This document shows positions 38,442 to 38,566 of a stretch of 50,363 bases of DNA, piece by piece. The DNA is from a virus. Position 1 is the stretch's first letter, and each line of letters opens with the position of its first letter. The stretch spans positions 1 through 50,363 of the IMG/VR virus record IMGVR_UViG_3300025322_000030; one strand, written 5' to 3'. The notes beneath the pieces are model-generated. The model was not told where the DNA came from and did not search any database. It saw nothing but the letters and a program-made list of their open reading frames with translations. The position numbers and the translations under genes were made by a program.

Positions 38442-38566
38442 AGAGCCCCGGTATTGTGGCCCACACCACGCTAATCCGACAGCGTGGCGCGTTGAAGAGG
38501 CGGTCATGGGCCTTCGATTGCACGGATGACCGCCGGGCTCCGGGCGCGTGCCTGGGCCGGGGCTCT
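38442..38566 (+). ncRNA. Predicted four-helix structured RNA
   Basis: P1 is 10 perfect pairs (AGAGCCCCGG, 38442-38451, with 38557-38566). P2 is 7 pairs (CCACGCT 38466-38472 with AGCGTGG 38481-38487). P3 is 9 pairs (GGCGGTCAT 38499-38507 with ATGACCGCC 38526-38534). P4 is 7 pairs with one GU near each end (38539-38545 with 38550-38556, loop GCGT) and stacks directly on P1. The result is a closed four-way junction at high GC in an AT-rich genome, and no gene of normal composition covers it. It lies 19 nt before a GTG-started gene, so it may be a leader element or a separate RNA. It does not match a tRNA or any RNA class I can name. Confidence 0.6.

Follow-up and report, generated by a model that had tools for sequence, protein, structure and literature searches.

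Is the compact, GC-rich sequence that separates two genes of a phage contig a functional RNA, or merely foreign DNA that folds well? The question is raised by a 125-nt element in the virus record IMGVR_UViG_3300025322_000030, analysed here over its whole length of 50,363 bp (the window). The window is assigned to a tailed phage because of its terminase large subunit gene (26120-27661, minus strand), whose best match among phage records is Desulfofustis phage LS06-2018-MD01 (46.9% identity). The element occupies a 156-nt gap, from the p163 stop at 38429 to the p63 GTG at 38586, within a row of tightly packed genes all read on the plus strand (Table 1). Tentatively, and at less than even confidence, we read it as a structured intercistronic element of a polycistronic phage mRNA, whose fold would depend on translation of p163 and which heads a group of foreign GC-rich accessory genes.

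Table 1. The element, its helices and the flanking genes; positions are those of the window.
Feature	Position	Strand	Description	Evidence
Element	38442..38566	+	nested pair of three-way junctions; P1 encloses P2(P3,P4) and P5	fold, shuffles, helix probabilities
P1	38442-38451/38557-38566	+	10 bp, perfect; 105 nt between arms	
P1 5' strand	38442..38451	+	shared target of upstream arm U and weaker downstream arm D	
P2	38458-38462/38535-38539	+	5 bp	
P3 hairpin	38466..38487 (38466-38472/38481-38487)	+	7 bp, 8-nt loop; least context-sensitive helix	
P4 hairpin	38499..38534 (38499-38507/38526-38534)	+	9 bp, 18-nt loop	
P5 hairpin	38540..38555 (38540-38545/38550-38555)	+	6 bp in MFE structure, 4-nt loop	
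Hairpin U	38385..38455	+	5' arm is last p163 codons; p163 stop codon in loop; 3' arm overlaps P1 5' strand	
p163	37938..38429	+	upstream gene, no family	
Shine-Dalgarno-like AGAGGAT	38571..38577	+	before p63	sequence, accessibility
p63	38586..38777	+	GTG start; orphan; first small gene of GC-rich set	
Rest of GC-rich set	38781..39821	+	neither a family above cut-off nor relatives found	
Two related Cys-rich proteins	38781-38951, 38917-39132	+	part of GC-rich set	
p115	39110-39457	+	part of GC-rich set	
p128	39435-39821	+	part of GC-rich set	

A GC-rich gene set in the ligase-HIRAN slot

The slot between the DNA ligase and HIRAN genes is variable among relatives, and in the window the element heads the GC-rich gene set that it contains. 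Fifteen ligase relatives were fetched for comparison, sibling contigs excluded; 12 of these have a HIRAN match downstream of the ligase (L020, L021 and L023 have none there), and the ligase-HIRAN gap is 25-516 bp in the 11 relatives measured (L022 was omitted as a duplicate of L010, with which it shares match coordinates) as against 2,106 bp in the window. Segment 38441-39820, at 55.1% GC, lies above all 817 sampled segments of equal size, and 46 of the 817 have a dinucleotide signature at least as deviant. The element itself has a GC content of 0.69, and the highest-GC 125-nt stretch of the window is located here.

None of the proteins of the GC-rich set belongs to a family above the curated cut-off, the p63 match to RapA_C (E 0.0062) being weak and below that family's cut-off, and none has relatives except in two sibling viral contigs. 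Over 9146 and 8132 bp, the fetched parts of these contigs do not differ from the window, and they include the join, which is therefore present in other assemblies. Cassette proteins and p163, used as baits for a donor, likewise returned only the sibling contigs as relatives; p63 matches at E 3 and a p163 match at E 0.2 were disregarded. Given the GC content, the gap sizes and the lack of families and relatives, 38441-39820 is likely GC-rich foreign DNA inserted into a variable slot. Four open frames run through the element, none with a family above the cut-off. The strongest match, to phrog_13863 (unknown function, E 0.0016), comes from the p63 frame when it is lengthened to an upstream ATG at 38526 that lacks a ribosome site; because of this weak match there is a small chance that the 3' part of the element may be coding.

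Several other features of the region and the contig were observed. In four relatives (L013, L015, L017 and L018) a small gene with an ACHxECxGxxAEN motif lies between ligase and HIRAN, the slot of the window's insert. An HNH endonuclease gene (36526-37050) is directly 5' of the DNA ligase gene, and 5 of the 15 relatives have HNH matches too. The tandem Cys-rich proteins (38781-39132) are 45% identical, with GSPCECGC common to both, and have no relatives among viral contigs besides the sibling contigs and none in species genomes. At 46742-48061 a single protein combines a ParB N-terminal domain with a DNA N6/N4 methylase domain. The most deviant dinucleotide signature of the contig is at 31081-31906, where an ORF (31526-31906) without a Pfam family has a strongly folded coding RNA, and a perfect 15-bp inverted repeat (six successive 10-mers) occurs at 1-97, the extreme left end.

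Fold of the element

The element has a minimum free energy (MFE) of -69.5 kcal/mol (z about -3.8), and none of 1000 dinucleotide shuffles was as stable. Its ensemble is almost a single structure (diversity 4.2, as low in 2 of the 1000 shuffles), and the number of shuffles both as stable and as well defined is again 0/1000; the fold is real and statistically strong. An earlier note, made from the letters alone, had described a GC-rich cloverleaf-like RNA with helices of 10, 7, 9 and 7 pairs that close on each other, a perfect 10-bp closing stem over a 105-nt separation and an 18-nt loop, and had placed it at the head of a GC-rich cassette, outside any convincing gene, as neither a tRNA nor a nameable RNA class. 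Its observation is confirmed, also by the shuffle comparison that it proposed, with three amendments. P5 has 6 rather than 7 pairs in the MFE structure; P2 had been overlooked, and its presence makes the element two nested three-way junctions instead of a cloverleaf (the 18-nt loop is in P4, which that note named P3); and the helices close on each other in some contexts, P1 and P2 being lost when the last codons of p163 are free to pair.

Among 20,000 simulations of the 156-nt gap, 0.96% contained a perfect 10-bp inverted repeat, and the whole window contains 17 perfect 10-mer inverted pairs (loop 60-130) versus 4.9 simulated. GGCCCA (38458-38463) and TGGGCC in the P4 loop form a pseudoknot candidate, spotted by eye. 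The strongest predicted structure on the plus strand, at 33067-33125 (scan window 33017, z about -7.6), is a long hairpin that lies within a short gap between genes and has no clear match in the ligase relatives.

Strong as it is, the fold is not unique in the genome, since the element ranks 29th by z among 2009 plus-strand scan windows of 125 nt, 28 being stronger. This rank and the peak in GC content would suit a passive sequence, left between genes by foreign DNA, very rich in GC, folding by chance and without a selected RNA function. The minus strand folds about equally well (-68.6, z -4.06), as such a remnant might; no homologue was found that could show conservation, and no sizeable effect on p63 was seen (below). 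The two shuffle counts of 0/1000, obtained at matched composition, nevertheless argue against chance folding, as does the rarity in three controls of the competition for P1 described below, and we regard a passive sequence as a strong rival, short of probable yet almost as likely as the reading that we prefer.

Homologues of the element were sought in viral contigs, phages, plasmids and genomes, and only the two identical sibling contigs were found. Distant blastn searches against phages, plasmids and E. coli genomes gave no homologue: the best two plasmid matches fall in shared GC-rich sequence that gives the impression of a transposase gene and do not match model R1, and the remaining short matches, none of which is below E 0.1, were attributed to chance. 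Of the exact and gapped patterns run on viral contigs and genomes, one matched 13 genome loci, none of which scored with model R1. Three sets were scored with this model, whose reach is short because it was built from two identical sequences: the window with 20 loci, the 13 loci, and the full records of 15 relatives. It matched only the window itself.

Among known classes, ARAGORN found no tRNA or tmRNA genes in the window, and the Rfam 15 covariance models gave no family there at gathering level. Over 38300-38900 at E<=10 the only Rfam match was a chance one to a snoRNA, which stops short of the element. Riboswitches, self-cleaving ribozymes and antiterminator RNAs commonly follow the plan seen in the element, with two nested three-way junctions whose junction strands are unpaired, and a diverged member of one of these classes might lie below the detection limit. 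The lack of any Rfam match over the element even at that threshold, and the orphan genes downstream, which suggest no ligand, make this most improbable.

The perfect terminal inverted repeat, the position at the edge of a foreign insert and the folding of both strands could also indicate an element acting as DNA and ending in the 10-bp inverted repeat, for example a miniature inverted-repeat element, an integron-type attC or a recombination or replication site. It is present, however, in a single copy in the contig, and no target duplication is visible in TTTT and GCCG, which flank it. Integron attC sites have the consensus R'' RYYYAAC and R' GTTRRRY at their ends, whereas the ends of the element, read by eye as AGAGCCCCGG/CCGGGGCTCT, hold no attC core-site pair. 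Moreover, the element fold contains 3 G-U pairs and the competing hairpin U 4, all of which become A-C on the minus strand, although that strand gains others in P3, and a role at the DNA level appears very unlikely.

A competing hairpin at the end of p163

The closing stem P1 is predicted to be conditional, being disputed by the last codons of p163 through a newly seen hairpin, U, in which GATACTGGGGCT (38385-38396) pairs with AGCCCCGGTATT (38444-38455), lengthened by a GTTAC/GTAAC part. Its formation takes the probability of P1 and P2 from about 1 to about 0. The MFE of 38385-38456 is -26.9 (z -4.4); none of 1000 shuffles is as good, and when the stretch is made a little wider 2 or 4 of 1000 are, counts that belong to a hairpin chosen post hoc, after looking. 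G-U pairs make up 4 of the 23 in U, and the same stretch is less stable on the minus strand (-23.2 vs -26.9), both of which favour the plus strand for this hairpin.

For RNA ending at 38600, P1 has a probability of 0.99-1.00 with starts at 38395 or later, 0.15 with a start at 38390 and 0.00 at 38385, the loss being due to hairpin U. Which of U and P1 prevails varies with the energy set and with the context length. In 38380-38600 U is at 0.95 and P1 at 0.00; the Andronescu 2007 parameters give U 0.59 vs P1 0.38 and also U 0.35 vs P1 0.60, near balance; and in 38380-38700 P1 is at 0.88 although U is available. P3 remains at least 0.93 in all contexts tried but one (0.69 at 60 C in 38380-38777), and P4 and P5 fall in several, P4 down to 0.11 in 38100-38586.

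The native upstream stretch brings P1 to 0.004. Values of 0.005 or less were reached in 3/400 synonymous p163 shuffles and 1/400 dinucleotide shuffles, and values of 0.004 or less in none of 558 other phage stretches substituted for the upstream stretch; at the looser level of 0.5 or less the counts are 13/400, 5/400 and 2/558 respectively, all of them for a hairpin selected after inspection. A downstream competitor, D, in p63 was rejected as not unusual, being matched in 18/300 synonymous shuffles in a short context and 63/300 in a long one. Blocking the nucleotides as far as 38441 puts P1 at 0.99, 0.99, 0.62, 0.96 and 0.95 for five downstream ends.

If the element is an intercistronic structure governed by p163 translation, the reading that we favour, its outer half would alternate between two mutually exclusive folds, U and P1/P2. 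While p163 is untranslated its last codons would pair with the P1 5' strand, leaving the stop codon in the loop and no P1/P2; ribosomes passing through p163 to the stop would melt U, freeing P1 to close the two-junction domain. A ribosome terminating at the p163 stop would have its leading edge near 38442, about the first base of P1, and the closed domain is expected when p163 is translated, because ribosomes reaching that point would hold U open. Provided that the element is transcribed and gated by ribosomes, as we infer, the closed domain may stand between p163 and p63 as a compact roadblock, or as a protective structure, and set the strength of downstream gene expression. That it further defines a new class of phage mRNA switch, whose two-junction domain exists only while the preceding gene is translated and through which the cassette senses operon translation via ribosome traffic, is unlikely. 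Should the fold exchange be real, the locus would be a compact and testable case in which an accessory cassette introduces into a phage operon an RNA element that depends on translation; should it not, the locus would exemplify how readily a 'cloverleaf' that looks convincing can come out of a GC-rich insert folded apart from its flanks.

Expression signals and comparison with known systems

The earlier note had suggested two functions, a riboregulator of the following gene or a separate non-coding RNA carried by the cassette, and its interpretation is partly supported. The first finds no support in the predicted effect on the p63 Shine-Dalgarno site, which is small. Opening energies are lower when the end of p163 is blocked than when it is left free from 38380, by 0.3-0.7 kcal/mol for the Shine-Dalgarno site and by 0.1-1.3 kcal/mol from that site to the start, and with the sequence free from 38300 onward one of five downstream ends gives the opposite sign; these energies reveal no sizeable effect of the fold exchange on the p63 ribosome site. 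In the 38300-38720 context, 193 of 200 shuffled elements leave the Shine-Dalgarno region more open than the native one does. Gating by a CUCU/AGAG hairpin (38563-38566 with 38571-38574) was considered and rejected, since the hairpin reaches up to 0.66 in some contexts and barely alters Shine-Dalgarno opening.

The second suggestion, a small RNA carried as a 'moron', draws on the compact autonomous fold and on its place at the front of a GC-rich insert, of foreign origin, within the variable slot. Against it, no sigma-70-like promoter was found near the element in a scan for that promoter type, no U-tract terminator lies at its 3' end, nor is there a terminator-like site on the plus strand between 37862 and 42400, and Rfam gives no match; we consider a separate RNA decidedly unlikely. 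That no such sites bound the element, and that its neighbours are packed plus-strand genes, favours an intercistronic segment of a longer mRNA. Further upstream, at 35892-35935 (AGTGCCCTC...GAGGGCACTTTTTT), a strong GC-rich hairpin precedes a T run and resembles an intrinsic terminator. For the intercistronic element that we prefer, the small Shine-Dalgarno effect and the absent terminator mean that the output may lie elsewhere (mRNA decay, Rho access or a bound protein) or be absent.

Comparison with well-known systems and with the literature, searched by general terms, gives analogies for the element. In the ribosome-position attenuators of trp and erm, mutually exclusive hairpins share one strand, and one arm lies in a translated frame. 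U and P1 are likewise mutually exclusive with a shared strand, and the U arm lies inside the p163 frame; unlike those attenuators, the upstream frame is a 163-codon gene rather than a leader peptide, and there is no U-tract terminator. The put RNA antiterminator of HK022 is located at an early promoter. Like put (PMC9378689), the element could conceivably be a compact folded phage RNA acting in cis; it differs in having no sequence or Rfam match and in sitting inside a gene row. The manA/wcaG and other phage-borne structured leaders (PMC2864571) are mRNA leaders defined by comparison of homologues; the element shares with them a structured RNA in a phage and is, unlike them, an orphan. In translational coupling by RNA unfolding, as reviewed in PMC12548453, translation of an upstream gene decides the intercistronic fold through pairing between the genes. 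The fold of the element is similarly predicted to depend on p163 translation, with the differences that the gap here is 156 nt and that no sizeable inhibitory structure was found over the p63 ribosome site. Translational coupling by RNA unfolding and the ribosome-controlled attenuators may serve as the closest working analogies for the element.
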